Positions 4,966 through 18,640 of a DNA stretch of 64,000 nucleotides are shown one piece after another. The notes under the pieces were generated by a model. The model ran no database searches. It saw nothing but the letters and a program-made list of their open reading frames with translations, and had not been told where the DNA came from. A program made the position numbers and the translations under genes. This DNA comes from Lacibacter sp. H375 (GTDB lineage: Bacteria; Bacteroidota; Bacteroidia; Chitinophagales; Chitinophagaceae). Positions within the stretch are counted from its first letter, which is position 1. The number at the start of each line of letters is the position of its first letter. The stretch is taken from contig NZ_JBBKTT010000001.1 of the NCBI RefSeq assembly GCF_037892425.1, positions 372,001-436,000 on the forward strand, given 5' to 3'.

Positions 4966-5094
4966 CGGTAATGTCTGCCAACCTTTTTTGAAACTACCAG
5001 CAATTTTATATTTGCTAAGTAAGTTCGGCATCTAATTTACTGTGATAAATTACTTAAAGGTGTCTTTTGTCACACGCAGTAAATAATCAAGGGT

Positions 5095-5102
5095 TAACTT
5101 TG
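5095..5102 (+). promoter_or_regulatory. -7 element TAACTTTG upstream of the DUF983 gene
   Basis: Exact match to the Bacteroidota -7 consensus TAnnTTTG, 15 nt before the ATG. A TTTG at 5066-5069 lies 25 nt upstream, which is longer than the usual spacing of about 19-21 nt, so the -33 box is uncertain. Confidence 0.5.
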
Positions 5103-5117
5103 CGAAAATTTTAAAGC

Positions 5118-5546
5118 ATGTCTGCCTCCAAGCCCAAGCCGAATTATTTATGGAGTATGTTTTCAATGCATTGTCCACGATGCCGAAGAGGTAAACTGTT
5201 TAAAGATTACAGTGCGTACAATTTCAAACACACGTTCGATATGCACGACGAATGCCCCGTATGCAAACAAAAATTTGATATGGAACCAGGCTTCTGGTAC
5301 GGAACCGGTTATGTGAGCTATGCCTTAACAGTTGCTATTTCTGTGGCAACATTTGTGGCCTGGTGGGTGTTAGTTGGGGTATCGTTCAGCGATAACCGTG
5401 TGTTCTGGTGGTTGGGTTTAAATTCTGTATTCTTATTGATCTTACAACCTTGGCTGATGAGGCTTAGCAGGGCCATGTATCTCTACTTTTTTGTGCGGTA
5501 TAATGAAGACTATGAAACATCGGAACCGCATAGGTTTGATTACTGA
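5118..5546 (+). CDS. DUF983 family membrane protein
   Basis: A 142-residue protein with two CxxC pairs in its N-terminal cytosolic part (CPRC near residue 15 and CPVC near 42), then two hydrophobic helices (about 65-88 and 95-115). This is the DUF983 pattern, a zinc-ribbon-like head on a membrane hairpin. Its function is unknown; in Bacteroidota it is a common single gene. It stands alone between the ABC exporter and carB, with its own predicted -7 element. Confidence 0.88.
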   Translation: MSASKPKPNYLWSMFSMHCPRCRRGKLFKDYSAYNFKHTFDMHDECPVCKQKFDMEPGFWYGTGYVSYALTVAISVATFVAWWVLVGVSFSDNRVFWWLGLNSVFLLILQPWLMRLSRAMYLYFFVRYNEDYETSEPHRFDY

Positions 5547-5550
5547 TGTA

Positions 5551-5654
5551 TGTCTGAACCATGATTCTTAGGATTTGTGAGACGTATGGGATTTACGCTC
5601 AACAACGATGATATATTGTTAATCTATTAATCAACCCAAATCCCGGTTCAGACA
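5551..5654. repeat. Dispersed intergenic repeat with 10-bp inverted termini
   Basis: The segment starts with TGTCTGAACC and ends with GGTTCAGACA, a perfect 10-bp terminal inverted repeat 84 bp apart. The interior has GGATTT/AATCCC-type words. This architecture recurs in intergenic DNA of many Bacteroidota. No ORF is present. It lies between DUF983 and carB. Confidence 0.7.
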
Positions 5655-5677
5655 ATTGCAACATGGCATTTCCGAAC

Positions 5678-5697
5678 GTACAAGAGTGCGACGCAAC
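5678..5697. repeat. 20-bp repeat, left copy (inverted partner at 15898-15917)
   Basis: The sequence GTACAAGAGTGCGACGCAAC is the exact reverse complement of 15898-15917. It lies in the spacer just upstream of the first carB half; the partner lies just downstream of the second half. A perfect 20-bp match is unlikely by chance in 64 kb. Confidence 0.85.
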
Positions 5698-5784
5698 TGG
5701 CGTTGAACAGCATTCCTAACGACCGTTACCAAAAAACCTTGAAAATCGGTTGAAAATTCACGCTCAGGTTAACGCTCAATCCAA

Positions 5785-5792
5785 TACTTTTG
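5785..5792 (+). promoter_or_regulatory. -7 element TACTTTTG of the carB N-terminal-half gene
   Basis: Match to TAnnTTTG, 16 nt before the ATG of the carB N-half. No convincing TTG box was found at the expected distance upstream. Confidence 0.5.
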
Positions 5793-5808
5793 CAGCCAAA
5801 TTCTCCCC

Positions 5809-7455
5809 ATGCCAAAAGATAAATCGATAACCAGTGTGCTGATCGTAGGCAGCGGCCCCATTGTGATTGGCCAGGCCTGTGAGTTTGATTATTCGGGTTC
5901 GCAAGCAGCCCGTAGTTTACGTGAAGAAGGAATTGAAGTAATTCTCATCAACAGCAACCCTGCCACCATCATGACCGACCCAATGATGGCCGACAAAGTG
6001 TACCTGTTGCCCCTCACTATTGAAAGTATTGAAGAAATACTGGAAGAAAATCCACAAATAACTGCTGTGTTGCCAACGATGGGTGGGCAAACAGCCCTCA
6101 ACCTTTGTAAGGAAGCAGATGAGCTGGGTATTTGGGAAAAATACAATGTGAAAATGATCGGGGTTGATGTTAAGGCAATCGATACAGCTGAAGACAGGGA
6201 AAAATTCCGTCAGCTGATGATCGATATTGGAATTGGTGTTGCGCCAAGCCGTGTTGCCAACTCTTTGTTAGAAGGAAAAGAATTTGCTCAGGAGATCGGT
6301 ATTCCTTTGGTGATTCGTCCATCGTTTACACTTGGTGGTACCGGTGGTGGTATCGTTATGCATAAGGATGAATTGGACGCAGCACTCGACAGAGGTTTGA
6401 AAGCAAGCCCGATGCATGAAGTCTTGGTGGAAAAGGCATTGCTCGGTTGGAAAGAGTTTGAATTGGAACTGCTGCGTGATAAGAACGATAATGTGGTGAT
6501 CATTTGTACGGTTGAGAACTTCGATCCGATGGGTGTGCATACCGGTGACAGTATTACAGTTGCTCCGGCCATGACATTGAGCGATACTGCTTTCCAGAAC
6601 ATGCGTAACATGGCAATCAAAATGATGCGTAGCCTTGGCAACTTCGCCGGTGGTTGTAACGTGCAGTTTGCTTTGAATCCCGAAAATGAAGACATTATTT
6701 CGGTTGAGATCAATCCACGTGTGAGTCGTTCATCAGCGTTGGCAAGTAAAGCAACGGGTTATCCTATTGCAAAAATTGCTGCAAAACTGGCCATTGGTTA
6801 TACATTGGATGAGTTGAAGAACCAGATCACTCAAACAACATCTGCTTACTTTGAACCGGCCCTTGACTATGTAATTGTGAAGATGCCACGTTGGAACTTC
6901 GACAAGTTCAAAGGTGCTGATGATCGTTTAGGTTTACAGATGAAGAGTGTGGGTGAAGTAATGGCCATTGGCAGAAGCTTTACTGAAGCTGTTCAGAAAG
7001 CCTGTCAGAGTTTGGAGAACAACGCTGTTGGCTTGGGTTACTATGGCCAAAGTGTAAAACATGCTGAAGAGCTGATCGAATATATTAAGGTGCCGAAATG
7101 GGATCGCATCTTCCGCATTAAAGATGCGTTGATGGCGGGTGTGAGTGTGAAGACGATCGTAGAAGCAACTAAGATCGACCGTTGGTTCATTTACCAGATC
7201 CAGGATATTGTGAACATGGAGAAAGAATTGATGAAGCATGATATGCAATCGCTCACAAAAGAATTACTGACTGAAGCAAAACGTATGGGCTTTGGTGATG
7301 AGCAGATCTGCAGAATTATGAAAGAAGATGCCAGTGAAGACGAACTCTACGAAAAACGTAAGGCCTGGGGCATTACCCGTGTGTACAAAATGGTAGATAC
7401 CTGCAGTGCTGAGTTTGAAGCGAAGACGCCGTATTTCTATAGTACGTTTGAGTAA
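5809..7455 (+). CDS. carB: Carbamoyl-phosphate synthase large subunit, N-terminal half
   Basis: Encodes the carboxyphosphate-forming half of CarB, which uses ATP, bicarbonate and ammonia delivered from CarA for pyrimidine and arginine synthesis. Visible are the preATP-grasp [16 protein letters not shown] (14-29), the ATP-grasp [12 protein letters not shown] (170-181), the metal and ATP site [10 protein letters not shown] (300-309), and the oligomerization region from about 405 to the end. At 548 residues the protein stops at YFYSTFE, exactly at the linker where a one-chain CarB continues into the second synthetase. The second half is a separate gene 7.1 kb downstream. The stop is followed by a strong terminator, so this is an independent transcription unit. 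carA is not in the window. Confidence 0.95.
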
Positions 7456-7483
7456 AACAAGAATATTGAAGATAGAATTTAGA

Positions 7484-7520
7484 AGAAGCATTGATTGATC
7501 GTCAATGCTTCTTTCTTTTT
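7484..7520 (+). terminator. Rho-independent terminator after the carB N-half
   Basis: An 11-bp perfect stem (AGAAGCATTGA at 7484-7494 with TCAATGCTTCT at 7502-7512), a 7-nt loop and a T-rich tail ending at 7520. It separates the carB N-half from the following glycan cassette. Confidence 0.85.
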
Positions 7521-7567
7521 CATGCATCACAACACTTCATCGGAAACGTTTTTTATCTTACATCGCC

Positions 7568-8656
7568 ATGATCAAAAACCTGAAAGCATTATTGTTTGGT
7601 TTACTTGTTGCACTAGTGCTATGCGAAATTGTATTGCGTATTTATAACCCGTTCACCAATTTCACCAAGCAGGGGAAATTAGTACTACCAGCAAGTCAGC
7701 AAACATTATTCGATAACCAATGGATCAAACAACTGGATGCAAAAATCAATTACAGTCGCAATGCATTGGGTTTCCGTGGACCAATGCCAACAGATAGCAT
7801 TTCAAAACTCAATTCCATTATTACGGTTGGTGGAAGTACAACAGAGTGTCGCTTTTTGAGCGACAGTACCACATGGCCTTTTTTGTTGGGTGAAGAACTG
7901 AAAGATTCGATTCCAAATCTGTGGGTGAACAATGCAGGCATTGATGGTCATTCAACATTTGGCCATTTGTTGTTGCTGAAGGAATACATCATTAAACTGA
8001 AGCCGAAGTATGTGGTGTTGCTTACAGGTGTAAATGATGTGGAAACAGAAAAGCCTGAAAGCTTTGATGTGATGAATGAAAACAAATTGCAGTATAGTTC
8101 CGTAAAAGCGTTCTTTAAATCATTACTCAACAAAACAGAAATTGGTGCCACAGTTTTTCAACTATACAATATTCGCTCTGCCTATAAAAAAGGATTGATC
8201 CATAAGGAAGTTAATTACAACCAACTGAAGGATACAACTTACACGCCTGCATATATCCAAGAATCAATCAGCAAGCAGAAAAACTACCTCCATGGCTATC
8301 AGTCAAGGTTACAGGAGATTGTCAATATTTGTGAAGCAAATAGTATAAAACCAATCCTGCTTACGCAACCATCTTTGTATGGAGCTTTTACTGATAGCAT
8401 AAGCGGTGTTCGTATGGATTTGAAATTTCATGAAAGTAATCCCGGTAAAAACAATTTGTTGCAAGAACAGGTGTTGGAGGAATACAACAATGTGGTTCGT
8501 TCGTTTAGCGCACAGGCAACAGTTATTGACCTGGCGAAACTGATGCCGAAGAATACTGCTTACTACTACGACTTTATTCATTTCAATAAACAAGGAGCCG
8601 CTAAGGTAGCAGAGATATTAGCAACCTCTTTGCAACAAACACTTCAACAGCATTAA
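7568..8656 (+). CDS. Membrane-anchored SGNH/GDSL hydrolase-like protein
   Basis: Predicted esterase or acyltransferase-type SGNH enzyme facing the periplasm. A single N-terminal membrane helix spans residues 7-24. The blocks are TVGGSTTEC with the nucleophile Ser90, the glycine in NNAGIDG (124), GVND with Asn156, and DFIH (335-338) supplying Asp and His. The start is the ATG at 7568; an upstream in-frame ATG at 7505 lies inside the terminator stem. It is the first gene of the SGNH, carbamoyltransferase, DUF5989, SxtJ set common in exopolysaccharide loci. A role in acetylating or deacetylating the exported glycan is inferred. Confidence 0.85.
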   Translation: MIKNLKALLFGLLVALVLCEIVLRIYNPFTNFTKQGKLVLPASQQTLFDNQWIKQLDAKINYSRNALGFRGPMPTDSISKLNSIITVGGSTTECRFLSDSTTWPFLLGEELKDSIPNLWVNNAGIDGHSTFGHLLLLKEYIIKLKPKYVVLLTGVNDVETEKPESFDVMNENKLQYSSVKAFFKSLLNKTEIGATVFQLYNIRSAYKKGLIHKEVNYNQLKDTTYTPAYIQESISKQKNYLHGYQSRLQEIVNICEANSIKPILLTQPSLYGAFTDSISGVRMDLKFHESNPGKNNLLQEQVLEEYNNVVRSFSAQATVIDLAKLMPKNTAYYYDFIHFNKQGAAKVAEILATSLQQTLQQH

Positions 8657-8659
8657 CAA

Positions 8660-8692
8660 TCTCAGCAGATCCCCCTTCGTCGGGATGACAAG
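8660..8692. repeat. Short dispersed repeat fragment (CGTCGGGATGACAAG type)
   Basis: The gap between the SGNH and carbamoyltransferase genes contains AGATCCCCCTTCGTCGGGAT followed by GACAAG. This resembles a widespread intergenic repeat ending in CGGGATGACA. Only one copy was seen here, so assignment rests on general recollection of the motif. Confidence 0.35.
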
Positions 8693-8715
8693 TAGAAATC
8701 ATTTATTTTGCACCC

Positions 8716-10578
8716 ATGTACATTCTCGGCATTTCAGCTTTCTATCATGATTCAGCAGCAGCCATCATTAAAGATGGAGAGATCATCGCTGCTGCACAGG
8801 AAGAACGGTTCAGCCGGAAGAAGCATGATGCCGGGTTTCCATCAAAAGCTGTTGAGTATTGTTTAAAAGAATCAGGCATTTCAATCGATCAACTTGAAGC
8901 AGTCGTGTTCTACGATAAACCATTGCTGAAATTTGAGCGCTTGCTTGAAACCTATTATGCATTTGCACCAAAAGGTTTTGCTTCTTTCCTTATGGCCATG
9001 CCGGTTTGGTTGAATGAAAAACTGTTTCTGAAAAAGATGATCCGTGATGAATTGAAGAAAATTCAACTCTACGATAAAAAGAAACTGAAACTGTTGTTCC
9101 CGGAGCATCATCTCAGCCATGCAGCATCTGCATTTTACCCATCGCCTTTTGAAGAAGCGGCGATAGTAACCATTGATGGGGTTGGCGAATGGGCCACCAC
9201 AACCATCTGCAAAGGAAAAGGCAAAGAGATTGAAATACTAAAGCAACTCAACTTCCCCCACTCTGTTGGTTTGTTATACTCTGCGTTTACATACTACTTA
9301 GGTTTTAAAGTAAACAGCGGTGAATATAAATTGATGGGATTAGCTCCATACGGCGATCCGTCATCTGAACAAACAAAGCAGTTTGTTTCGATCATAAAGG
9401 AAAAGCTGGTAAAAATTTATGATGATGGTTCTATTTATTTAGATCAGCAGTATTTCAACTATTCAGTTGGGTTACGAATGGTAAAAGATAAAAAGTTTGA
9501 AGCCTTGTTTAGCTTTAAACGTAGAAGTGAAGAAGAGGAATTAACTCAACAACATTGTAATCTTGCTTTGGCCATTCAACAGGTAACAGAAGAAATTGTA
9601 TTGAAACTGGCAGCACATGCAAAATCATTAACAGGTTTAAACAATATCTGTTTATCGGGTGGCGTAGCACTGAACTGTGTAGCAAATGGTAAGCTGCAGA
9701 ATTCAAATCTGTTTGAGAACATTTTTATTCAACCCGCAAGTGGCGATGCAGGCGGTGCAGTTGGTTCGGCCTTAGCAGCCCATCATATTTATTTTGAGAA
9801 AGAACGCATTGTCAGCTCAGCAATGGATGCGATGAAAGGTTCCTATCTCGGCCCCTCTTTTTCTGCTGATGAAATTGAATCAACTATTCAACAATACAAA
9901 GCAGTTGCAACAACATTCAATAACAGAAATGAATTAAACCAAAAAGTTTCAGCACACATTAATGAAGGGAATGTAGTTGGCTGGTTCCAGGGACGAATGG
10001 AGTTTGGTCCAAGAGCATTGGGTAACAGAAGTATTATTGCTGATCCACGCAACCCGGAGATGCAGAAAAAACTCAACCTGAAGATAAAATACAGAGAAGG
10101 TTTTCGTCCCTTCGCTCCTGCTGTGCTTGCAGAAGATGTACAGGATTATTTTGACTTAGATACGTCATCACCTTACATGTTGTTAGTACAACCGTTGAAG
10201 AAAACATTACAGCATACTGTTCCCGATAATTATCATCAACTCAGCTTAACAGACAAATTGTATTTCCAACGCAGCAGTTTGCCCGCCGTTACGCATATCG
10301 ATTATTCGGCCCGTGTTCAAACAGTACATCAGAAAACTAATGCTGCTTTTCATTCGCTCATCACAGCATTCAAACAACAAACCGGTTGTGCCGTATTGAT
10401 CAACACAAGCTTTAATGTACGTGGCGAACCCGTTGTATGCACACCACAGGAAGCTTATCAATGTTTCATGCGTACAGAAATGGATTATCTTGTTATTGAA
10501 AATTACCTGTTCAGCAAACAGGAGCAACCTGAGTGGAAAGAAAAAGATGATTGGAAGAAAAACCTCCAGGCTGATTAA
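8716..10578 (+). CDS. NodU/CmcH/TobZ-type carbamoyltransferase
   Basis: Transfers the carbamoyl group from carbamoyl phosphate, via carbamoyl-adenylate, to a hydroxyl on a sugar or natural product in the cytoplasm. The N-terminal Kae1-like domain starts at MYILGISAFYHDSAAA and has the metal/adenylate histidines in EHHLSHAASAFYPSP (His131, His132, His135) and the glycine motif LSGGVALNCVANGKL (about 315-330). The C-terminal YrdC-like part has GRMEFGPRALGNRSI and RPFAPAVL. The 620-residue length is normal. A TATTTTG sequence ends 5 nt before the ATG, so it may have its own promoter. DUF5989 and SxtJ follow directly. The substrate, carbamoyl phosphate, is the product of the carB genes on either side. 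Confidence 0.93.
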   Translation: MYILGISAFYHDSAAAIIKDGEIIAAAQEERFSRKKHDAGFPSKAVEYCLKESGISIDQLEAVVFYDKPLLKFERLLETYYAFAPKGFASFLMAMPVWLNEKLFLKKMIRDELKKIQLYDKKKLKLLFPEHHLSHAASAFYPSPFEEAAIVTIDGVGEWATTTICKGKGKEIEILKQLNFPHSVGLLYSAFTYYLGFKVNSGEYKLMGLAPYGDPSSEQTKQFVSIIKEKLVKIYDDGSIYLDQQYFNYSVGLRMVKDKKFEALFSFKRRSEEEELTQQHCNLALAIQQVTEEIVLKLAAHAKSLTGLNNICLSGGVALNCVANGKLQNSNLFENIFIQPASGDAGGAVGSALAAHHIYFEKERIVSSAMDAMKGSYLGPSFSADEIESTIQQYKAVATTFNNRNELNQKVSAHINEGNVVGWFQGRMEFGPRALGNRSIIADPRNPEMQKKLNLKIKYREGFRPFAPAVLAEDVQDYFDLDTSSPYMLLVQPLKKTLQHTVPDNYHQLSLTDKLYFQRSSLPAVTHIDYSARVQTVHQKTNAAFHSLITAFKQQTGCAVLINTSFNVRGEPVVCTPQEAYQCFMRTEMDYLVIENYLFSKQEQPEWKEKDDWKKNLQAD

Positions 10579-10590
10579 CTTTGTAAAACT

Positions 10591-10743
10591 ATGATGGAGT
10601 TTTTAAAAGACATGTGGTCCTTTTTGAAAGAGCGTAAGAAATGGTGGTTAGCCCCCATCATTATTGTTATGCTGGTGCTTGGCGTGTTACTTATTTTCGG
10701 TGGCAGTACATCGGTTGCACCATTTATTTACTCCTTGTTTTAA
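10591..10743 (+). CDS. DUF5989 family small membrane protein
   Basis: A 50-residue protein, MMEFLKDMWSFLKERKKWW then one membrane helix (about 20-38) and the ending SVAPFIYSLF. This is the pattern of the DUF5989 proteins regularly encoded between NodU-type carbamoyltransferases and SxtJ proteins. Translation may begin at either of two consecutive ATGs (10591 or 10594). It begins 12 nt after the carbamoyltransferase, and its stop codon abuts the SxtJ start. Function unknown; its constant neighbours suggest a membrane partner of the carbamoylation or export step. Confidence 0.85.
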   Translation: MMEFLKDMWSFLKERKKWWLAPIIIVMLVLGVLLIFGGSTSVAPFIYSLF

Positions 10744-11097
10744 ATGAGGTGGCAAGCTAAACATACTTCGCTGGTTGTAATAGCCGCAGGCTTTTTCTTA
10801 TTTTATTTACAATTTAATAAGCTATGGTTGCTCGGACCGGTTATTCTTTCTGCCATTGGTTTTGCAATAGCTCCCTTGGGCGAATTTATTCACCGAGGTT
10901 GGATGAAACTGGCAAAAGTATTGGGCTATATAAACAGCCGAGTGTTGCTTTTTTTGATTTTCTATGTAATACTTACACCTCTTGCATTAATACAGAGACT
11001 GTGTCAATCAAAAAAAATAACTGAAAGATTGAAGAAAAACAGATTTCTTACCCGAAACCATATGTTTGCAAAAGACGATTTTATAAAACCATGGTAG
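10744..11097 (+). CDS. SxtJ family membrane protein
   Basis: A 117-residue protein with two N-terminal hydrophobic helices (about 10-25 and 30-45) and another near 60-80, followed by a basic cytosolic tail. The size, helix layout and position directly after DUF5989 match the SxtJ family, named from saxitoxin clusters and widespread in polysaccharide clusters. The start ATG follows the DUF5989 TAA without a gap, implying translational coupling. Biochemical function is not established. Confidence 0.8.
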   Translation: MRWQAKHTSLVVIAAGFFLFYLQFNKLWLLGPVILSAIGFAIAPLGEFIHRGWMKLAKVLGYINSRVLLFLIFYVILTPLALIQRLCQSKKITERLKKNRFLTRNHMFAKDDFIKPW

Positions 11098-11100
11098 TAC

Positions 11101-11823
11101 TTATTTGCCAGAGAAAAATCTTAGTTTAATTAAGCAAATAAACGTATTGAATCCCCCTTTTAGCATTACATATGAAAAGCCAGTAATACTTCGTTTTTTT
11201 CTGAACACCTGGTTAACTGAAATATTTGTCACACGCTGACCAGCTTGGATAAATAAAGCACTCAACAAAACATTAGGAGCAAAACAATTTGTTGGAATTT
11301 TTGGAAGAAAAGAATGAACCGATGTTAATCGCATCAAACGATATGGACAATTACAATCGTTAATCCCTTTACCAAACAAACTCCTTATCATCAAAAATGA
11401 AACTTTAGAAAGCAGTATTCTGAATACACCTTGTTTATTTTCTGCAAAACGTTGACCTAGTAACAAGTCGTACTGTTGTCTACTATTCCAAAATAGTTTA
11501 AACCGATGATGATCAAGCTCGTGATCTGAATCGACTTGGAAAATCCATTCAGCATTTTTAGCCTCGCTATAAGCCTTTATTAGAGTTGATCCATGACCGC
11601 TATTTTGCTTTTCGACAATTTCAATTTCAGAATATTGGTCTGCGTATTCCTTTATTCTGGACTTAGATTCATCTGTCGAACCATCGTTATAGAAACGAAT
11701 AACAAAATCAATATCCAATGTTTTCAGCAGCATTACCCAGTCTGTAATAAAACCAGGCAGATTAGCGGCTTCATTGTAAACAGGTGTCACAAGAAGCAGG
11801 TCAAGGTGTTTAGTTTGCGTCAT
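11101..11823 (-). CDS. Family 2 glycosyltransferase (DPM1-like)
   Basis: Cytosolic GT-A glycosyltransferase of 240 residues, resembling polyprenyl-phosphate sugar transferases. It has the N-terminal TPVYNEAANLPGFI, the NDGSTDES turn, and the metal-binding acidic motif QVDSDHE. No C-terminal membrane helices are seen, unlike many ArnC-type enzymes. Its start overlaps the end of the upstream membrane gene by 14 nt, so the two are co-translated. The obvious hypothesis is that it makes a lipid-linked sugar used by that membrane protein. Confidence 0.85.
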   Translation of the reverse strand: MTQTKHLDLLLVTPVYNEAANLPGFITDWVMLLKTLDIDFVIRFYNDGSTDESKSRIKEYADQYSEIEIVEKQNSGHGSTLIKAYSEAKNAEWIFQVDSDHELDHHRFKLFWNSRQQYDLLLGQRFAENKQGVFRILLSKVSFLMIRSLFGKGINDCNCPYRLMRLTSVHSFLPKIPTNCFAPNVLLSALFIQAGQRVTNISVNQVFRKKRSITGFSYVMLKGGFNTFICLIKLRFFSGK

Positions 11824-13297
11824 TAATTTTACGTTTGAAAAGAATAAAATTATCTTTTTGATATAATTCTGTATAGTTCTTTTTAAGATAATCTTCCCAC
11901 TGTTCTTGAAAATCTTTTTTATCTACAGGTTGTAATTTGTAGAAATCGAGAACATAAGTTGTTCGATACCTATCCAAGCCTGCAATAATTTCTTTAATAA
12001 CTCTTCCATCAGTATCAAAATTTATCAGATGCTGACGGTATTGCGTTGTATATATCCATTTTGTTGGCGAGAGTACGTTCAAGTTATTATTCAGAGCAAG
12101 AAACGGAGTACTACCCATTACATATAATTGCCCATCCTTATTTCGGATCTTTTGCAATTCCTTTGTAAGATCCTCGACCTGTAAACCAATATCCGAATGT
12201 TTTCGCTTTATGATATTATGGAACGAGTTCTTCCACATTACAAAGAACAATCCTGCAGCAAATGTAAATGACAAGGGACTAAGATATCGTTTCGAAAAAA
12301 AAGGTTGCCATTCTTTAAAAACAATAATTGCTGACACTGTAACAATTGCACTAACAGTTAATAGATAATGGAAAGCAGCAAAATGATCAAAAATCCTACC
12401 TGCAAATGTTTTAGAAATCAATGCAAATAATATTGTAAAAAATGATGTAACGTGAAGTGAGACATTTGTGGCTCGGATTATATAATAACCATGAATGATT
12501 AACAATGGAAATACAAGAAACAGGTATCTTGAATGAAATAAAATTTGGAATGCTGCTGTGACTTTATACAGTATCGGCCTTCGGCTCTCATAAACAAGAA
12601 GGTTAAACAGATAGCTTTGTTCCCAATAATCTGCTAAAGCTCCATTTACAGCAATCCACAATAAAAGTGGAATAGTCAATAAAGAAAACCCGATAATCAT
12701 CATCCCAATTCGCTTCAATATAAGTTGCACTGGATTTCGGGATCCTTGCTTTGTCTGATTAAACAAGTGATACATTACAAACGGAAATGCTAACAGCAGT
12801 TCTTCCTGTTGCATGTGAAATATTAACGCACAAATAAAACCAGTAAGTATATATTTTTCCCCTTGATTAAGCAGAATAACGGAAAACAAAATAGCAAGGA
12901 AGCAGGCTGTATACTCTCTGGTGAGTGTTCCGGATATTAAAATGAAAGGGGGCAGCAAACAAATAAGAAAAATGAGTGGGAAAAGCCACACATTTACAAG
13001 CAACATTTTTTGACCTGTCTTGTATAAAAAAAGTGATGCAACCCATTTTGACAGAACCCCTAAACCAAAATATCCCCATGCTTTCAAAGGCCATGCAAGC
13101 GACAATAGTAAAAAAATTAGCGGAGGTTTGTGATCAAAAAAAGTTTTATACGGAATTTGTCCCTTCCATATACTCATGGCACCATAAATGAACACTTGTT
13201 TATCCGGACCAACATTTCCAAATGGCGGAGCATAAGGCATACTCAACACAATTGTGACTAATAACAGTAAAATGGATACAAGCGTGAATCTATTCAC
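11810..13297 (-). CDS. Polytopic membrane protein, probable GT-C (GT39-like) glycosyltransferase
   Basis: A 495-residue protein with about ten hydrophobic helices and a C-terminal soluble stretch. After the first helix it has GPDKQVFIYGAMSIWKGQIP and FFDHKPPLIF, which is the GT-C layout with an acidic residue in the first periplasmic loop and a conserved DHKPP. That points to a lipid-linked sugar transferase facing the periplasm. The start is GTG (complement of 13295-13297), overlapping the glf stop by 8 nt. It sits in a tight operon glf, this gene, family 2 transferase. Confidence 0.72.
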   Translation of the reverse strand: MNRFTLVSILLLLVTIVLSMPYAPPFGNVGPDKQVFIYGAMSIWKGQIPYKTFFDHKPPLIFLLLSLAWPLKAWGYFGLGVLSKWVASLFLYKTGQKMLLVNVWLFPLIFLICLLPPFILISGTLTREYTACFLAILFSVILLNQGEKYILTGFICALIFHMQQEELLLAFPFVMYHLFNQTKQGSRNPVQLILKRIGMMIIGFSLLTIPLLLWIAVNGALADYWEQSYLFNLLVYESRRPILYKVTAAFQILFHSRYLFLVFPLLIIHGYYIIRATNVSLHVTSFFTILFALISKTFAGRIFDHFAAFHYLLTVSAIVTVSAIIVFKEWQPFFSKRYLSPLSFTFAAGLFFVMWKNSFHNIIKRKHSDIGLQVEDLTKELQKIRNKDGQLYVMGSTPFLALNNNLNVLSPTKWIYTTQYRQHLINFDTDGRVIKEIIAGLDRYRTTYVLDFYKLQPVDKKDFQEQWEDYLKKNYTELYQKDNFILFKRKINDAN

Positions 13298-14438
13298 TAG
13301 TTTGTAATTTATTTAGTTGATCATCAAAAATTTCCAACGCCCGGTTTATAGTTTCGTGCATATCATAATACTTGTAGTCGCCCAACCGGCCTGCCACTAT
13401 AAGATTTTTTTCCTGCCCGGCTAATTTTCTATACTCTTTAGCGAGTATTGTATTGTTTGCATCGGGAATGGGATAAAAAGGTTCATTCCCATCATCGGCC
13501 TTTGAATACTCTGTAAATACAAGTGTTCTTTCTATTGTGTAACTACGCTCAGGATGTAGATGTCTTGGTTCGTGCTGTCTTGTAAAAGGAACGGAACTAT
13601 CTGCGAAGTTCATTACACTCGTTCCTTGATAATCTTCAACATCAAATATCTGTTTCTCAAATTGCAGCGTACGCCAATTCAGTTTACCCAGTGAATAATT
13701 AAAATAACGATCGAGTGGTCCGCTGTAAACAATTGTTGCATCAACTGCAAGCTGGCCTTTCACATCAAAAAAATCAGTATTCAATCGCACATCAATCAAA
13801 GGATCACTCAACAGCTTTTCAAAAATGGCTGTATATCCTTTCGATGGTATGCCTTGATATGTTGAGAAATAATAATTCTCATCATAATTTTTCCTGAAAG
13901 GAAGCCTGCTTAAAAGCTCTGCCGGGAGTTTCGCAGGGTCAGTTTGCCATTGCTTGGCTGAATATCCTTTTATAAAAGCCTCATATAACTGTCTTCCTAC
14001 AAGGCTGATCGCTTTTGCTTCGAATGAAGAGGTATCGCTTATCTTTTCCTTGGCTGCCTGTTGTTGTAAAAATTCTGCAACCTCAAATGGCTTTAACGAC
14101 AAGGAAAAAAAGCTATTGATCGTTTCAAGGTTTATTGGCAACTGGTACACCTTACCTTCATGCGTAGTAAGTACCTGATGCCGGTATTGATTAAAGGAAG
14201 TGAACTGGTTGATATAGTTCCATACCCGTTCGTTGGAAGTATGGAAAATATGTGTGCCGTATTTGTGAAATTCGATCCCGGTTTCCGGGTCAATTTCCGA
14301 ATAACAATTTCCTCCAATATGTGCCCTCCTTTCCAGCACAAGCACCGGTTTTTTTAAAACAGAGGCAATTCGTTCCGCCAGAACCGAGCCGAGGAAACCG
14401 CTTCCGGCAATAACATATTTATAGTCAGATAACTGCAT
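13290..14438 (-). CDS. glf: UDP-galactopyranose mutase
   Basis: FAD enzyme interconverting UDP-galactopyranose and UDP-galactofuranose, the donor for galactofuranose-containing glycans. The FAD-binding N-terminus YVIAGSGFLGSVLAERI, the ERRAHIGGNCYSE strand, the substrate region KYGTHIFHTSNERVW and the late VAGRLGDYKYYDMHE motif are all visible. The length of 382 residues is typical. It leads a three-gene - strand operon and is divergent from the carB C-half. A -7 element lies 5 nt from its ATG. Confidence 0.95.
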   Translation of the reverse strand: MQLSDYKYVIAGSGFLGSVLAERIASVLKKPVLVLERRAHIGGNCYSEIDPETGIEFHKYGTHIFHTSNERVWNYINQFTSFNQYRHQVLTTHEGKVYQLPINLETINSFFSLSLKPFEVAEFLQQQAAKEKISDTSSFEAKAISLVGRQLYEAFIKGYSAKQWQTDPAKLPAELLSRLPFRKNYDENYYFSTYQGIPSKGYTAIFEKLLSDPLIDVRLNTDFFDVKGQLAVDATIVYSGPLDRYFNYSLGKLNWRTLQFEKQIFDVEDYQGTSVMNFADSSVPFTRQHEPRHLHPERSYTIERTLVFTEYSKADDGNEPFYPIPDANNTILAKEYRKLAGQEKNLIVAGRLGDYKYYDMHETINRALEIFDDQLNKLQTSE

Positions 14439-14443
14439 CCGTA

Positions 14444-14451
14444 CAAATATA
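14444..14451 (-). promoter_or_regulatory. -7 element TATATTTG of glf, almost at the start codon
   Basis: The complement reads TATATTTG, matching TAnnTTTG, with only 5 nt to the glf ATG. The transcript would begin at or within a few nucleotides of the start codon. Confidence 0.5.
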
Positions 14452-14558
14452 GGGTCTGTATTTTTTCTAATTGCGGCTGGTTGTAACTAAACAAATCACT
14501 GTTAGTTGTGTACTTAGATAAAGTGCAAAAAAATCCCTCAAAATTTTTCCTGTAACCG

Positions 14559-14566
14559 TACATTTG
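14559..14566 (+). promoter_or_regulatory. -7 element TACATTTG of the carB C-half, almost at the start codon
   Basis: Match to TAnnTTTG, 7 nt before the ATG at 14574. It indicates that the C-half has its own promoter and possibly a leaderless mRNA. Confidence 0.55.
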
Positions 14567-14573
14567 CACCGCA

Positions 14574-15767
14574 ATGGCAAATACGATCCTTCACAACGAA
14601 TCCATTCCATCTCAACGTAAAAAAATTATTGTTCTCGGCAGTGGCCCCAACCGCATTGGTCAGGGTATCGAGTTCGACTACTGCTGTGTTCATGGTCTGC
14701 TCGCCATTAAAGAATGTGGCTACGAGGCGATCATGGTGAACTGTAACCCCGAAACGGTTAGTACCGACTTCGATATGGCCGATAAGCTGTATTTCGAACC
14801 GGTTTACTGGGAACATCTCTGGGAAATTATTGAGCTGGAAAAACCATACGGTGTAATTGTACAACTGGGCGGACAAACTGCCCTCAAGCTGGCAAAACGT
14901 CTGCACGAAAGAGGTATCCGCATCATCGGTTCTTCGTTCGACAGTATGGATATTGCCGAAGACCGTGGCCGTTTCAGCGATTTATTGAAAGAACTGGAAA
15001 TTCCTTACCCAAAATATGGCACAGCTTATACCACCGACGATGCCATTGAAGTAGCAAAAACAGTTGGTTACCCAGTGTTGGTTCGTCCCAGCTATGTGTT
15101 GGGCGGACAAAGGATGCGTATCGTTATCAACGAAACCGAACTGGAAAGTGCAGTATTGAGCCTCATCAAACATTTGCCCGGCAACAAGATTCTTATCGAT
15201 CATTTCCTCGATCGCTGCCAGGAAGCGGAGATCGATGCGATTTATGATGGTGAGAATTTTCATATAATGGGTGTTATGGAACATATTGAACCTGCGGGTA
15301 TTCACAGTGGCGATAGTCATGCAGTATTACCTGAGTTCAACCTCACACCATTGGTGGTTGCAACCATGGAAGAATATGCAAAGAAAATTGCGAAAGCATT
15401 GAAAATACAAGGTCTCATCAACATCCAGTTTGCCATTAAAGATGGTAAAGTATTTGTGATCGAAGCCAATCCACGTGCAAGTCGCACTACCCCGTTTATT
15501 GCAAAGGCATACCAAATACCTTATCTCAACATTGCAACTAAAGTAATGATGGGAGTAAATAAACTCACCGACTTTACATTTGAGAAAAAACTAACCGGTT
15601 ATGCTATCAAAGAGCCGGTGTTCAGCTTCAGCAAATTCCCGAATGTAAACAAGGAGCTCGGCCCTGAAATGAAGAGTACCGGTGAGGCCATCCGCTTTAT
15701 TAAAAACCTTCGTGATCCTTACTTCCGCCAGTTGTATAAAGACAGAAGTATGTATCTCAGTAAATAA
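14574..15767 (+). CDS. carB: Carbamoyl-phosphate synthase large subunit, C-terminal half without allosteric domain
   Basis: Encodes the carbamoyl-phosphate-forming synthetase half of CarB. It has preATP-grasp GSGPNRIGQGIEFDYC (22-37), ATP-grasp RPSYVLGGQRM (171-181) and EANPRASRT (297-305). Residues 8-19 (NESIPSQRKKII) look like the interdomain linker of a one-chain CarB, so the chain begins where the N-half ends. At 397 residues it stops after the synthetase domain. The MGS-like allosteric domain that follows in E. coli CarB, where ornithine and UMP bind, is absent. It has its own promoter element and terminator. The two halves must assemble as separate chains. Confidence 0.95.
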   Translation: MANTILHNESIPSQRKKIIVLGSGPNRIGQGIEFDYCCVHGLLAIKECGYEAIMVNCNPETVSTDFDMADKLYFEPVYWEHLWEIIELEKPYGVIVQLGGQTALKLAKRLHERGIRIIGSSFDSMDIAEDRGRFSDLLKELEIPYPKYGTAYTTDDAIEVAKTVGYPVLVRPSYVLGGQRMRIVINETELESAVLSLIKHLPGNKILIDHFLDRCQEAEIDAIYDGENFHIMGVMEHIEPAGIHSGDSHAVLPEFNLTPLVVATMEEYAKKIAKALKIQGLINIQFAIKDGKVFVIEANPRASRTTPFIAKAYQIPYLNIATKVMMGVNKLTDFTFEKKLTGYAIKEPVFSFSKFPNVNKELGPEMKSTGEAIRFIKNLRDPYFRQLYKDRSMYLSK

Positions 15768-15773
15768 ATTTCA

Positions 15774-15801
15774 AACTCCGCACTTGTTGCGGAGTTTTTT
15801 T
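15774..15801 (+). terminator. Rho-independent terminator after the carB C-half
   Basis: 9-bp stem AACTCCGCA (15774-15782) with TGCGGAGTT (15788-15796), 5-nt loop, then a T-run. Confidence 0.9.
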
Positions 15802-15817
15802 ATAGTTGCCAGGAAGG

Positions 15818-15851
15818 CGGAAAGACGAAAAGAAAACTTCCCGTCTTTCCG
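15818..15851. repeat. Palindromic intergenic element
   Basis: Perfect 10-bp inverted repeat CGGAAAGACG (15818-15827) and CGTCTTTCCG (15842-15851) around a 14-nt loop. There is no T-run, so it looks like an intergenic palindrome rather than a terminator. It resembles the element before enolase at 63043-63122. Confidence 0.5.
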
Positions 15852-15897
15852 GCTAAGTATTTTTTGTTACAGGCACTTGCTTTTCACGGCATCAACT

Positions 15898-15917
15898 GTT
15901 GCGTCGCACTCTTGTAC
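15898..15917. repeat. 20-bp repeat, right copy (inverted partner at 5678-5697)
   Basis: Exact reverse complement of 5678-5697, located between the terminator of the carB C-half and the DinB-like gene. The flanking bases differ, so the identical core is 20 bp. Confidence 0.85.
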
Positions 15918-15956
15918 TGCATTGCAGAGTGGGGCTAATCTTCTTAACTTAGAAGA

Positions 15957-16427
15957 ATGAAAAGCGAAGTACAATCGATCATCAGCAATCTCGAACGAGT
16001 GTTAACCGGTCAGCCATGGTATGGTGAAGCAGTAATGCCCATGCTGCGCAAAATTCATCCGGCAGTAGTGTACATCAATCCAAAGAATTCACATGCAGCC
16101 ATTGAAATATTGTATCACATGATCAATTGGGCTCAGTTTACATTAAATCGTTTGCAACGAATCCGGGAAGAAGACCTTATTGATTCAGAAGAATCGGATT
16201 GGCGTACCATTGATCCCAAAAAACATACCTGGGAAAAAGGATTGAAAGAATTTGAACAACTGCACAAACAGATCGTAACTGAATTACAAACCAAAGACGA
16301 TTCGTTTTTAAAAGAAATGGTTGATTACCGGGAATATAACTTCCGCTTTCTCCTCAATGGATTGATACAACATAATATTTACCACCTCGGTCAGATCGCC
16401 TACCTGAAAAATCTATTAGGCGAATAA
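15957..16427 (+). CDS. DinB family protein
   Basis: A 156-residue all-helical protein of the DinB/YfiT group, which forms a four-helix bundle with a metal site of three histidines. Candidate ligands are in YHMINW (near residue 49-54) and HNIYHLGQI near the C-terminus. DinB-like proteins act in thiol-dependent detoxification or remain unassigned; the substrate here is unknown. It is a single gene between repeat-rich spacers. Confidence 0.8.
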   Translation: MKSEVQSIISNLERVLTGQPWYGEAVMPMLRKIHPAVVYINPKNSHAAIEILYHMINWAQFTLNRLQRIREEDLIDSEESDWRTIDPKKHTWEKGLKEFEQLHKQIVTELQTKDDSFLKEMVDYREYNFRFLLNGLIQHNIYHLGQIAYLKNLLGE

Positions 16428-16431
16428 TATA

Positions 16432-16499
16432 GCTCACAGATTGCACAGATGTTTACAGATTTTGGTATCTCATCCGTGTTTGCTGTGAAATCAGTGAGC
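16432..16499. repeat. Dispersed repeat of the CACAGATT type with inverted ends
   Basis: A 68-bp element beginning GCTCACAGATTGCACAG and ending CTGTGAAATCAGTGAGC. The ends form an imperfect inverted repeat (15 of 17 positions pair). The interior repeats TTACAGATTT-like words. It fills the gap between the DinB-like gene and comEC. Confidence 0.65.
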
Positions 16500-16576
16500 A
16501 ACTCTCTTGCAAAAAAGGGTTAAATCCCCCTGTCCTTTCGAAATGTCAGTTGCTATTTTGCCGGAAATAGTTGCTA

Positions 16577-18640
16577 ATGATCCCTGTCTGGAAAAACATC
16601 CCCTTCCTACGCATTATCATTCCATTTAGTGCCGGCATTTTAGCAGGCTGGTATTTTTCGTTGCATTGGCAAATTGCTTTGATCGCAGCAGTAGTTGCTC
16701 TCCCATTCTTTCTTTACCTGCAGTTCAGCGGCGAACGAAGCCGCTTTTATAACAGTTGGCTTGATGGTCTTTCCTTCAACATCATTTTCATTTCACTTGG
16801 CATTGCACTTGTTTGGTTACAACAAAAACCACATCAACCAAACTGGACAGGGCATTTTTATAAAGAAGGGGATGCTGTGCAACTGCGTTTACTGGAACCA
16901 TTAAGTGAACGGGAGAAAACGTATAAAGCACTTAGTGAGATAACCGTTGTTTATCATCAGCAAAAAGCAAGAAAGGTAACAGGCAGGGCAATGATCTATT
17001 TTCGAAAAGATAGCATTGCCCCTTCTTTACAATATGGTGATGTAATTCTTGTGCGCAGCAATTTGCAGGAAATAAAAAATGCTGGCAATCCAGGCGGGTT
17101 CGATTATAAACGATATGCATTGTTCAATGGCATCACCCATCAACTGTTTGTAAAATCAAACGAGTATAAAAAATTACCGCAACAACAAACATCCCTCTTC
17201 TATAAAAAAATGTATGAGTTCAGAAGTTATATTCTGCAAACCATCCGTAGGTATGTAAAAGGCGATATGGAAAGCAGTATTGCAGAAGCGTTACTCATCG
17301 GCTACCGTGATGATCTAGACAGGGACCTAGTGCAGGCATACAGCAACACAGGTGTTGTACATATCATTGCTGTTAGTGGAATGCATCTTGGTTTGATCTA
17401 TGGCTTATTGATGTTTCTTTTAAAAGGTTTGAACAGAAACAAAAGGCTGAAAATAATAAAAGCTGTTTTGATCATTACATTGTTGTGGCTGTTCAGTTTA
17501 TTGACCGGGGCAAGTGCATCTGTGTTAAGAGCTGTTCTTATGTTTACTGCGATCGTTGGTGCAGAAGTAATCGACCGCAAAGGAACTATTTACAATAGCA
17601 TGGCAGCATCAGCAGTTGTATTATTACTCTTTAATCCGTTTTTGTTGTGGGATGTAGGTTTTCAATTATCATACGCTGCTGTGTTAAGTATTGTTCTTTT
17701 CATGAAATCCATTTACAACTGGTTTGCCATTCAAAATAAATTATTAGATGGGCTCTGGAAATTAAATGCATTGACGCTCTCTGCACAAATATTAACCTTG
17801 CCTCTTTGTATGTATCATTTTCACCAGGCTCCAACATTATTTCTTATTACGAATCTTGTAGCAGTTCCATTATCAAGTCTAGTGTTATATGCTTTGATCT
17901 TATTGATGGTTGTTTCTCCATTCGTCGCACTTGCAAATGCAGTTGGTTGGCTCATTACAAAAATGCTTTGGCTCATGAATCAATTCATTCTTTGGGTCGA
18001 TCATTTTACGTTTGCCGTAGTGGATGGTATTGAGCACTCGCCTGTTCAAACCATTTTGCTATACCTCATTATTGCAGGATTGGGTATCTGGCTTATTCAA
18101 AAGAAAAAAGCAGCATTAAAATTTACGCTTTTCTTCATCGCAGTTTTCTTCGCTGTTCAATTCTATTATCAGTATGCAACTTCAAAGCAACAAAAATTGG
18201 TGGTGTATAATTTATCGCAACACACGGCCATTGATTTTATGTTGGGGAAACGATATTACTTTAACGGAGATTCAGTTTTGCTACAAGATGGTTTTCTTCG
18301 AAACTTTCACCTCAAACCCTCCCGCATTGCTCATCGTACCTATGAGCAGCCCAACATCAACTCAAATAATGCATGGACGATCAACAATAAAACCATCATA
18401 CACATCAACCAATCGTACCGCTACGATTCTACTGTAAAGATCACTGCCGATGTGGTCATCGTTTCCAACAATCCCAAACTTTACCTCAATCAATTGCAAA
18501 AAACGATCAACTGTAAGTTGCTTGTGTTCGACAGTTCTAACCCGCAATGGAAGCTCAAGTACTGGAAAACCGATTGCGAAAAGCTCGGCATCCACTATTT
18601 CTGCACAAGTGAGCAGGGCGCTTTTGTGATGAACCTGTAG
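16577..18640 (+). CDS. comEC: ComEC/Rec2 family DNA-uptake channel protein
   Basis: Inner-membrane channel that carries single-stranded DNA into the cytoplasm during natural transformation. About 687 residues: an N-terminal DUF4131-like region with membrane helices and a soluble OB-fold-like part (to about 200), then the Competence domain with the hallmark AVSGMHLGLIYG near residue 265 and many helices to about 515. The C-terminal remainder shows no metallo-beta-lactamase motifs (no HxHxDH), so the nuclease-like domain present in longer homologues is missing. I use the ATG at 16577; a TTG two codons upstream is less likely. Confidence 0.88.
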   Translation: MIPVWKNIPFLRIIIPFSAGILAGWYFSLHWQIALIAAVVALPFFLYLQFSGERSRFYNSWLDGLSFNIIFISLGIALVWLQQKPHQPNWTGHFYKEGDAVQLRLLEPLSEREKTYKALSEITVVYHQQKARKVTGRAMIYFRKDSIAPSLQYGDVILVRSNLQEIKNAGNPGGFDYKRYALFNGITHQLFVKSNEYKKLPQQQTSLFYKKMYEFRSYILQTIRRYVKGDMESSIAEALLIGYRDDLDRDLVQAYSNTGVVHIIAVSGMHLGLIYGLLMFLLKGLNRNKRLKIIKAVLIITLLWLFSLLTGASASVLRAVLMFTAIVGAEVIDRKGTIYNSMAASAVVLLLFNPFLLWDVGFQLSYAAVLSIVLFMKSIYNWFAIQNKLLDGLWKLNALTLSAQILTLPLCMYHFHQAPTLFLITNLVAVPLSSLVLYALILLMVVSPFVALANAVGWLITKMLWLMNQFILWVDHFTFAVVDGIEHSPVQTILLYLIIAGLGIWLIQKKKAALKFTLFFIAVFFAVQFYYQYATSKQQKLVVYNLSQHTAIDFMLGKRYYFNGDSVLLQDGFLRNFHLKPSRIAHRTYEQPNINSNNAWTINNKTIIHINQSYRYDSTVKITADVVIVSNNPKLYLNQLQKTINCKLLVFDSSNPQWKLKYWKTDCEKLGIHYFCTSEQGAFVMNL

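Follow-up and report, generated by a model that had tools for sequence, protein, structure and literature searches.

Recurrent splitting of carB at one linker in Chitinophagaceae, with a carbamoyltransferase cassette in the gap in Lacibacter

How did carB come to lie in two pieces several kilobases apart, do both pieces still serve one enzyme, and what are the genes between them? Only a few organisms are known to have a split carbamoyl phosphate synthetase. The question is raised here by a locus of Lacibacter sp. H375, found within a stretch of 64,000 nucleotides (contig NZ_JBBKTT010000001.1, positions 372,001 to 436,000) that was analysed as a whole and is called the window throughout. Our search of titles and abstract openings, with subscription papers mostly outside its reach, yielded no report of a split carB in Chitinophagaceae or of a carbamoyltransferase inside carB. 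New are the genus-wide and family-recurrent split at one linker and the cargo in the gap.

Results

Two carB genes in the window

The two carB genes are located on the same strand, 7118 nt apart (Table 1), and add up to 945 amino acid residues. Pfam domains CPSase_L_D1, D2 and the D3 oligomerisation domain were matched in carB-N, and D1 and D2 in carB-C. Aligned to E. coli CarB, carB-N corresponds to residues 1-548 and carB-C to residues 557-924, the cut falling between positions 548 and 557. Both ATP-grasp cores are kept in this alignment, for which we assumed the catalytic residue numbers of the E. coli protein. The tandem pre-ATP-grasp and ATP-grasp units with D3 between them are present, divided over two ORFs. 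The synthetase halves are thus colinear with those of E. coli CarB (PDB 1bxr and others), which is, however, one chain of 1073 residues with an allosteric domain, whereas the window has two chains without it. The initial annotation, made from the sequence of the window, had described two ORFs tiling one chain of about 945 residues, each with complete ATP-grasp motifs; sizes and alignment agree with it on both points.

Table 1. Features of the split carB locus (positions within the window)
Feature	Position	Strand	Remarks
Promoter-like TAnnTTTG element of carB-N, TACTTTTGC	5785..5793	+	-24 from ATG
carB-N, carboxyphosphate synthetase half with oligomerisation domain	5809..7455	+	548 aa; ORF, Pfam, E. 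coli CarB alignment
Terminator-like hairpin after carB-N	7482..7514	+	14 pairs, T-run
SGNH/GDSL hydrolase-like gene, cassette gene 1	7505..8656	+	Listed start 7505; true start likely near 7568
NodU/CmcH-type carbamoyltransferase, cassette gene 2	8716..10578	+	620 aa
SxtJ-family small membrane protein, cassette gene 3	10744..11097	+	
Glycosyltransferase family 2, extra insert	11101..11823	-	Among genus genomes examined, only in the window genome and G003
Hydrophobic protein, extra insert	11810..13297	-	495 aa; without Pfam match
UDP-galactopyranose mutase (Glf), extra insert	13290..14438	-	
Promoter-like TAnnTTTG element of carB-C, TACATTTGC	14559..14567	+	-15 from ATG
carB-C, carbamoyl phosphate synthetase half, without MGS domain	14574..15767	+	397 aa; ORF, Pfam, E. 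coli CarB alignment
Terminator-like hairpin after carB-C	15773..15797	+	10 pairs, T-run

Scored against the CarB family NF003671 (cut-off 599), carB-N passes with 847 and carB-C fails with 556; both remain below the cut-off of TIGR01369 (1027), scoring 820 and 493, respectively. The window carB is not a single chain passing the family cut-offs. A search of the whole genome (assembly 100% complete, 3 contigs) returned one N-type and one C-type match and no second carB; carA is present in a single copy 1.9 Mb from the halves. The defects named beforehand as fatal to a reading of two working halves, namely a second complete carB, a frameshift or a lost catalytic stretch, were all absent from the window genome. 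Judging from sequence divergence, both halves are under strong purifying selection, dN/dS against six congeners being 0.009-0.074, with the two most distant pairs near silent-site saturation.

No Pfam match to the MGS domain was found in carB-N or carB-C. The domain is indeed absent from the C-half, as first noticed, but the accompanying claim that control by UMP or ornithine was lost through the split has to be abandoned, because the fused CarB of the window's family likewise lacks MGS. So does the phylum sample in large part: among the matches listed, a single CarB chain of about 940 residues that leaves no space for MGS is more frequent than any other form (62 of 138 genomes). Loss of MGS as part of the carB split was rejected on the same grounds. 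MGS domains of the window genome reside in the purH of the window and in a reading frame of 156 aa at a distance of 3.9 Mb.

Signals flanking the two halves

Each half was initially credited with its own promoter-like element and terminator, and corresponding TAnnTTTG elements and T-run hairpins were located (Table 1). TAnnTTTG, which we take to match the Bacteroidetes -7 consensus, stands at an identical distance before carB-C in every one of the 13 genus members that have both halves, the window genome among them. Terminator-like sites numbered 15 against 8.7 expected, the two carB hairpins having the longest stems on the plus strand, and of 12 further members of the genus tested, 9 likewise had a T-run hairpin 3' of carB-N. 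A sigma-70 promoter scan gave 25 sites against 29 expected, and no known structured RNA reached the gathering threshold within 4900-16600. These putative hairpins and separate promoter-like elements in the window genus speak against one simple operon.

The split recurs in the family at one linker

Split carB is common to the window genus and, with one genome sampled per genus, occurs in 36 of 90 genera of the family. When relatives were searched for a one-gene carB and for the site of the split, both forms were found, and within the family it was invariably this one linker that had been cut. Across the 71 split genomes compared, the N chain stops no more than 15 residues downstream of YFYSTF (or a variant of it), the start of the C chain lies shortly before NES or NDS, and fused relatives carry matching sequence on both sides of the joint. 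Within the window genus, all 13 members with both halves, one of them a single-contig assembly, share the junction, and no half contains a stop.

On CarB trees, the split or fused state needs 13 changes, 7 to 9 of them forced by well-supported (starred) branches. The tree set comprised 136 genomes (133 of the family) chosen partly for mixed genera, so that its 71:65 proportion of split to fused is not a frequency. Some of these changes may be re-fusions. The smallest splits consist of an in-frame stop with 36-39 nt (G205, G276 and G374); the halves are 155 nt apart in G006, and further stages show gene-sized inserts between the halves and then distances of megabases.

Genes between the halves

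The initial annotation recognised the split but overlooked two things, that it recurs within the family and that the gap holds a carbamoyltransferase cassette also found in other lineages. Assigned by homology, the cargo genes of the window include a putative NodU/CmcH-type carbamoyltransferase (Carbam_trans_N, E 1.4e-93; Carbam_trans_C, E 1.8e-74), the sole full-length copy in the genome. As in NodU/CmcH and SxtI-SxtJ neighbourhoods, where the SxtI gene adjoins SxtJ, PF02543 and PF16861 here adjoin PF19588; unlike in those neighbourhoods, the pair sits inside a split carB. Members of the NodU/CmcH family transfer carbamoyl from carbamoyl phosphate, and the cassette enzyme most likely consumes the carbamoyl phosphate made by the split synthetase. 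This use of the product we infer, as we do any benefit of the arrangement.

A carbamoyltransferase adjoins a carB half in 11 of 14 genomes of the window genus and also in G063 and G400. In genus g108 it lies no more than 6 kb from a carB half in all nine genomes carrying it, among the matches listed. The cassette type is thus found at split carB in four lineages that do not form one CarB clade: such a clade was rejected with p-AU 2e-58, in a test on a group that also contained three genus members lacking the gene at carB and that was defined once the tree was known. A single clade of the carbamoyltransferases at carB was not rejected (p-AU 0.17), and the cassette may therefore have moved between lineages as a unit. 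As to possible transfer of the cassette by recombination together with its carB flanks, the last 60 carB-N residues of G063 match the window at 88% versus 71-83% for five fused relatives, but segments of 40 residues point to no consistent donor.

Fused carB presents a different picture. Among the matches listed, none of 33 genomes combining a carbamoyltransferase match of at least 50% identity with a fused carB at known coordinates had the two within 20 kb on the same contig; in 30 of them they were on different contigs. The fused carB of G071 has a carbamoyltransferase of lower identity (44%) at a distance of 6.8 kb, again among the matches listed. These placement counts leave out six genomes that carry the gene, namely G252, G188, G066, G207, G187 and G408. 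Since at least seven split genomes (G007, G339, G392, G404, G415, G175 and G086) hold a carbamoyltransferase of the same class away from carB, the coupling is not obligatory.

Other cargo was detected as well: an ORF6N gene between the halves in G171 and G282, ORF6N-like genes, identified by resemblance, that are truncated in G112 and disrupted in G217, a PIN-domain gene in G300 and SGNH alone in G339. Altogether, seven cargo-bearing lineages were counted (g1, g50, g57, g108, g58, g99 and g67), four of which hold the carbamoyltransferase.

Discussion

We consider it likely that the locus encodes a three-chain carbamoyl phosphate synthetase which arose by recurrent fission at a linker, and that the opened linker then became a repeated target of gene insertion, frequently of a gene whose enzyme is likely to use the product. 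The ancestor would have been a one-chain CarB of about 940 residues without MGS, whose non-conserved linker between the synthetase halves opened in place, between YFYSTFE and xNES, several times within the family. Other genes would then have entered, the core cargo of the window genus being SGNH, carbamoyltransferase and SxtJ; the probable order is fission, acquisition of an own promoter, cargo and dispersal. The promoter-like and terminator-like elements suggest that the genes of the two CarB chains are transcribed separately. That fission at the linker left two working halves, as initially proposed, is supported by intact conserved ORFs, their low dN/dS and fused relatives matching both sides of the joint.

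An assembly artefact or a decaying carB is a negligible prospect. In G033, G069 and G074 carB does look broken only through contig ends or frame shifts, but against this stand the junction shared across the window genus, the lack of a stop inside any half and the strong purifying selection on both halves. It is also improbable that carB split once, in the ancestor of the family, and then re-fused repeatedly, with the cassette in the gap from the start and lost many times. The deep split groups (the window genus, two large groups, G106 and G169) can form one clade (p-AU 0.5), and the unrejected single clade of carbamoyltransferases at carB fits this history too. Yet young splits are nested in the fused groups g67, g99, g58, g57 and g108, and those of g67, g99 and g58 consist of a stop codon or of gaps between 36 nt and 1.4 kb, with no TAnnTTTG before the C-half. 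Re-fusion would moreover demand exact in-frame repair many times, and none of the 33 fused genomes keeps the carbamoyltransferase at carB among the matches listed.

Recurrent fission leaves the meaning of the cargo to be weighed. The linker could be merely a tolerant insertion point, reached by the carbamoyltransferase through chance or the habits of mobile elements and without metabolic coupling; the ORF6N, PIN-domain and lone SGNH cargo and the cassettes away from carB agree with this. We nevertheless regard it as rather unlikely, as four of seven cargo-bearing lineages share an uncommon gene whose likely donor substrate is made by carB, which is unexpected by chance at an assumed 4000 or so genes per genome. 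The boldest form of the coupling idea, which we judge less likely than not, is that splitting at the domain joint makes the carB linker a recurrent docking site, in at least four lineages, for the gene of the enzyme consuming its unstable product, the supply and use of carbamoyl phosphate forming a single coding and perhaps also physical unit.

In Aquifex aeolicus, CPS.A, CPS.B and the glutaminase are encoded by separate genes, and their products combine into a single functional complex (Ahuja et al. 2001, as described in PMC6022934). Going by that description, the window is alike in encoding its CPS.A and CPS.B parts separately, its own cut lying at the A/B boundary. It differs in its phylum, in recurrent independent fission and in the carbamoyltransferase cassette between the halves, and it has no allosteric domain. 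By analogy, carB-N and carB-C would assemble with CarA into a working three-chain, glutamine-dependent synthetase.

In this family, fission of a core channelled enzyme can be followed through every stage, beginning with a single stop codon and ending with halves separated by megabases, and closely related fused forms serve as controls. One can therefore test why fission of a protein is tolerated, how the carbamate tunnel between subunits persists despite it and whether genes inserted between the halves link the producer of a metabolite to its consumer.

Outside the family, the phylum also has a second type of split, exemplified by G476 (494 + 618 aa), likewise with two carB genes far apart. 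Its cut falls some 70 residues earlier, within the D3 oligomerisation domain, and its C chain, unlike that of the window, keeps MGS. The sizes of the split CarB of Methanocaldococcus resemble those of this second type.

The two halves of carB in the window genome and genus

The initial annotation described carB as divided into two genes, and the length, order, spacing and linker-like ends of the two ORFs were all found as described. Matches in Pfam and NCBIfam show that one is the N and the other the C synthetase half of CarB, residues 1-548 of the N-half aligning to E. coli CarB 1-548 and residues 13-379 of the C-half to 557-924. According to motifs read from these alignments, both halves have indeed kept the ATP-grasp stretches with the catalytic residues. 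A second complete carB elsewhere had been named as evidence against the proposed fission; no further carB half is present in the window genome. It has one carA, 1.9 Mb away.

Among 13 window-genus genomes with both halves (window counted), neither half is interrupted by a stop codon; in G004 the C-half runs off the contig, and in G008 the C-half alone was found. Comparison of the window with six congeners gives dN/dS values of 0.012-0.074 (N-half) and 0.009-0.067 (C-half), with silent sites close to saturation in the most distant pairs. As far as sequence can tell, both halves work. In 13/13 genomes the promoter-like element TAnnTTTG lies exactly 15 nt upstream of the C-half ATG, and 10/13 have a strong hairpin with T-run downstream of the N-half, so that, as already guessed, each half looks like a transcription unit of its own. 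Two congeners (G011, G012) contain a second, fused carB beside the split one, which represents either an acquired copy or contamination.

Split carbamoyl phosphate synthetase is already known. CarB comprises two homologous synthetase halves joined by a linker. In Aquifex, as summarised in section 3.1 of PMC6022934, the halves are separate chains binding each other and the glutaminase; by analogy, the halves described here would do the same.

Recurrence of split carB

Relatives with one-gene carB were sought, as the annotation had proposed, and both fused and split genera exist in the family. With one genome per genus, 36 of 90 genera are split and 50 fused, three have a fused gene interrupted by the end of a contig or by a change of frame (G033, G069, G074), and G077 has a free C-half and no complete N-half; a 91st genus, g13, is too incomplete to be classed. 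Both states even occur within single genera (g67, g99, g58, g108, g57). The CarB tree of 136 genomes (71 split, 65 fused) needs 13 split/fused changes, seven of them forced by well-supported branches; a tree of 93 genomes (46 split, 47 fused) also needs 13, with nine forced. A single event may account for the deep split groups, the window genus among them (as one clade, p-AU 0.5), and later splits in the 93-genome tree are those of g67, g57 (G400), g58 (G339), g99, g50 (G063), g12, g2/g113 and g108. Among the matches listed, G101 has two carB-N copies and one carB-C.

The break always falls between YFYSTF and NES, a segment whose length in fused proteins ranges between about 3 and 20 residues. 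Split genomes display graded distances. In G205, G276 and G374 the halves share one frame, interrupted by a stop codon, and the C match begins 36-39 nt further on; in G080 and G155 about 40 nt separate them, out of frame. Gaps then widen to 78 nt (G245), 120 nt (G024), 155 nt (G006, window genus, where the gap includes a terminator-like hairpin and an own promoter-like element), 354-799 nt (G388, G300, g99), 1.4 kb (G339), 3.6 kb (G063) and 7.1 kb (window); the remaining split genomes have the halves on separate contigs or at distances of tens of kb up to Mb. In 49/71 split genomes TAnnTTTG precedes the ATG of the C-half, at -35 to -12; the element is absent from g2, from G024 and from every young adjacent split in g67, g99 and g58, and also from some old splits (G028, G097, G106, G125). 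These snapshots suggest that a stop codon would arise first, followed by an own promoter, cargo and finally dispersal. In the titles and abstract openings searched, which take in few subscription papers, we found no report of recurrent carB fission with graded stages.

Genes placed between the halves

The core cargo of the window (see table) recurs in the genus. Eight genomes (G000, G003, G009, G001, G002, G012, G011, G010) show, in one stretch and co-directionally, carBN-SGNH-carbamoyltransferase-SxtJ-...-carBC. Partial views come from G013 (N side), G004 (carbamoyltransferase adjoining carB-N) and G008 (C side); G007 has kept an SGNH gene and a 517-aa ORF, and G006 and G005 have no cassette genes. 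The order in G006 is carBN-carBC-ComEC-purH-EamA. Since ComEC-purH-EamA also follows carB-C in the window (with a DinB-like gene added), is found in G400 and follows the fused carB of L073, the C-half has remained at the original locus. Several congeners carry, along with the cassette, a gene for a hydrophobic protein of about 515-535 aa; neither of the two copies scanned (L304, L314) matched a Pfam family.

Similar cargo is present in other lineages: G063 (g50) has carBN-SGNH-carbamoyltransferase-SxtJ-carBC, and G400, whose eight other examined g57 relatives are all fused, has carBN-carbamoyltransferase-SGNH-like-SxtJ-like-carBC, with its first two genes 6 nt apart and the SGNH-like and SxtJ-like genes scoring below Pfam cut-offs. 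In g108, a carbamoyltransferase (>=50% identity) lies <6 kb from a carB half in 9/9 genomes with the gene among the matches listed, and in G288, G329 and G365 one stretch covers both halves; in G121 carB is fused and no carbamoyltransferase is among the matches listed. Of 33 genomes having such a carbamoyltransferase (>=50%) and fused carB at known coordinates, none has them within 20 kb on one contig, and 30 have them on different contigs (matches listed). No carB was found about 4-8 kb to each side of the carbamoyltransferase in G417, G174, G362, G284, G219, G368, G396, G394 and G257, and at least seven split genomes hold the gene away from carB among the matches listed. These placement counts leave out six genomes with a carbamoyltransferase. 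A more distant one lies 6.8 kb from fused carB in G071, among the matches listed.

CarB of cassette-bearing lineages as one clade is clearly rejected (p-AU 2e-58; five window-genus members were included, three of them without carbamoyltransferase at carB). The carbamoyltransferases at carB occupy three places in their tree, where the AU test does not reject a single clade of them (p-AU 0.17). The cassette has either inserted at carB on several occasions or passed from lineage to lineage with the resident carB left in place. Carbamoyl phosphate, an unstable compound, serves as donor for the NodU/CmcH-type family. Because glycosyltransferases and Glf surround the window enzyme, its putative substrate is perhaps a surface glycan or small molecule. 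The same titles and abstract openings gave no report of a gene for a likely consumer being placed repeatedly in the carB cut.

Other gaps contain an ORF6N-domain gene (g99: L202 of G171, L204 of G282), a small ORF with a PIN-domain gene, toxin-antitoxin-like (G300, L212), a small ORF (G327) or SGNH alone (G339). On both sides of the ORF6N gene of G282 lies a near-identical sequence of about 22 nt, and the gap of G388 (L191) holds sequence resembling a broken gene.

Locations of carB genes and associated features
Feature	Location	Strand	Remark
carB-N	window 5809-7455	+	548 aa
SGNH hydrolase, NodU/CmcH-type carbamoyltransferase, SxtJ	window carB gap	+	core cargo
Glycosyltransferase family 2, hydrophobic 495-aa protein, Glf	window carB gap, after SxtJ	-	among genus genomes examined, otherwise G003 only
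carB-C	window 14574-15767	+	397 aa
Second, fused carB	G011:C3:175389-178199; G012:C74:3488-6298		940 aa, 66-69% identity
Two carB-N copies	G101 C67:83737-85383, C77:24508-26151
Distant carbamoyltransferase	G071:C90:131072-132799		44%
Hydrophobic cassette companion	L304:4112-5713; L305:8900-10465; L307:3832-5403; L312:5357-6946; L314:7195-8748

The MGS domain and a second kind of split

The annotation's claim that the C-half lacks the MGS domain holds, and its loss as part of the split does not, for within the family fused CarB terminates at the same point. The only MGS domains in the window genome are in the window's purH and a distant 156-aa frame. The 43 best loci in named records (L069-L111) all carry Bacteroidetes-group titles; 42 of them end right where the C match does, and L081 a single residue further on. 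Of the others (L112-L148), 36/37 extend 140-169 aa past it, L135 being cut by a contig end. MGS loss is older than the carB split and unrelated to it.

Among the matches listed for 138 genomes of the phylum (G475 without a row), a single-chain CarB is present in 62 (open frame of 941-1021 aa, matched to its end) and in a further 31 (1056-1219 aa); two show the window-type split, and 42 match in the N part only, from residue 1 to about 475-485. The last class points to another split type, with C-chain matches in at least nine genomes. G476, the one such genome examined in full, is an example of this second kind in other families: its N chain of 494 aa (L369) and C chain of 618 aa (L370) are 1.1 Mb apart, carB is cut inside the D3 domain, and MGS is kept.
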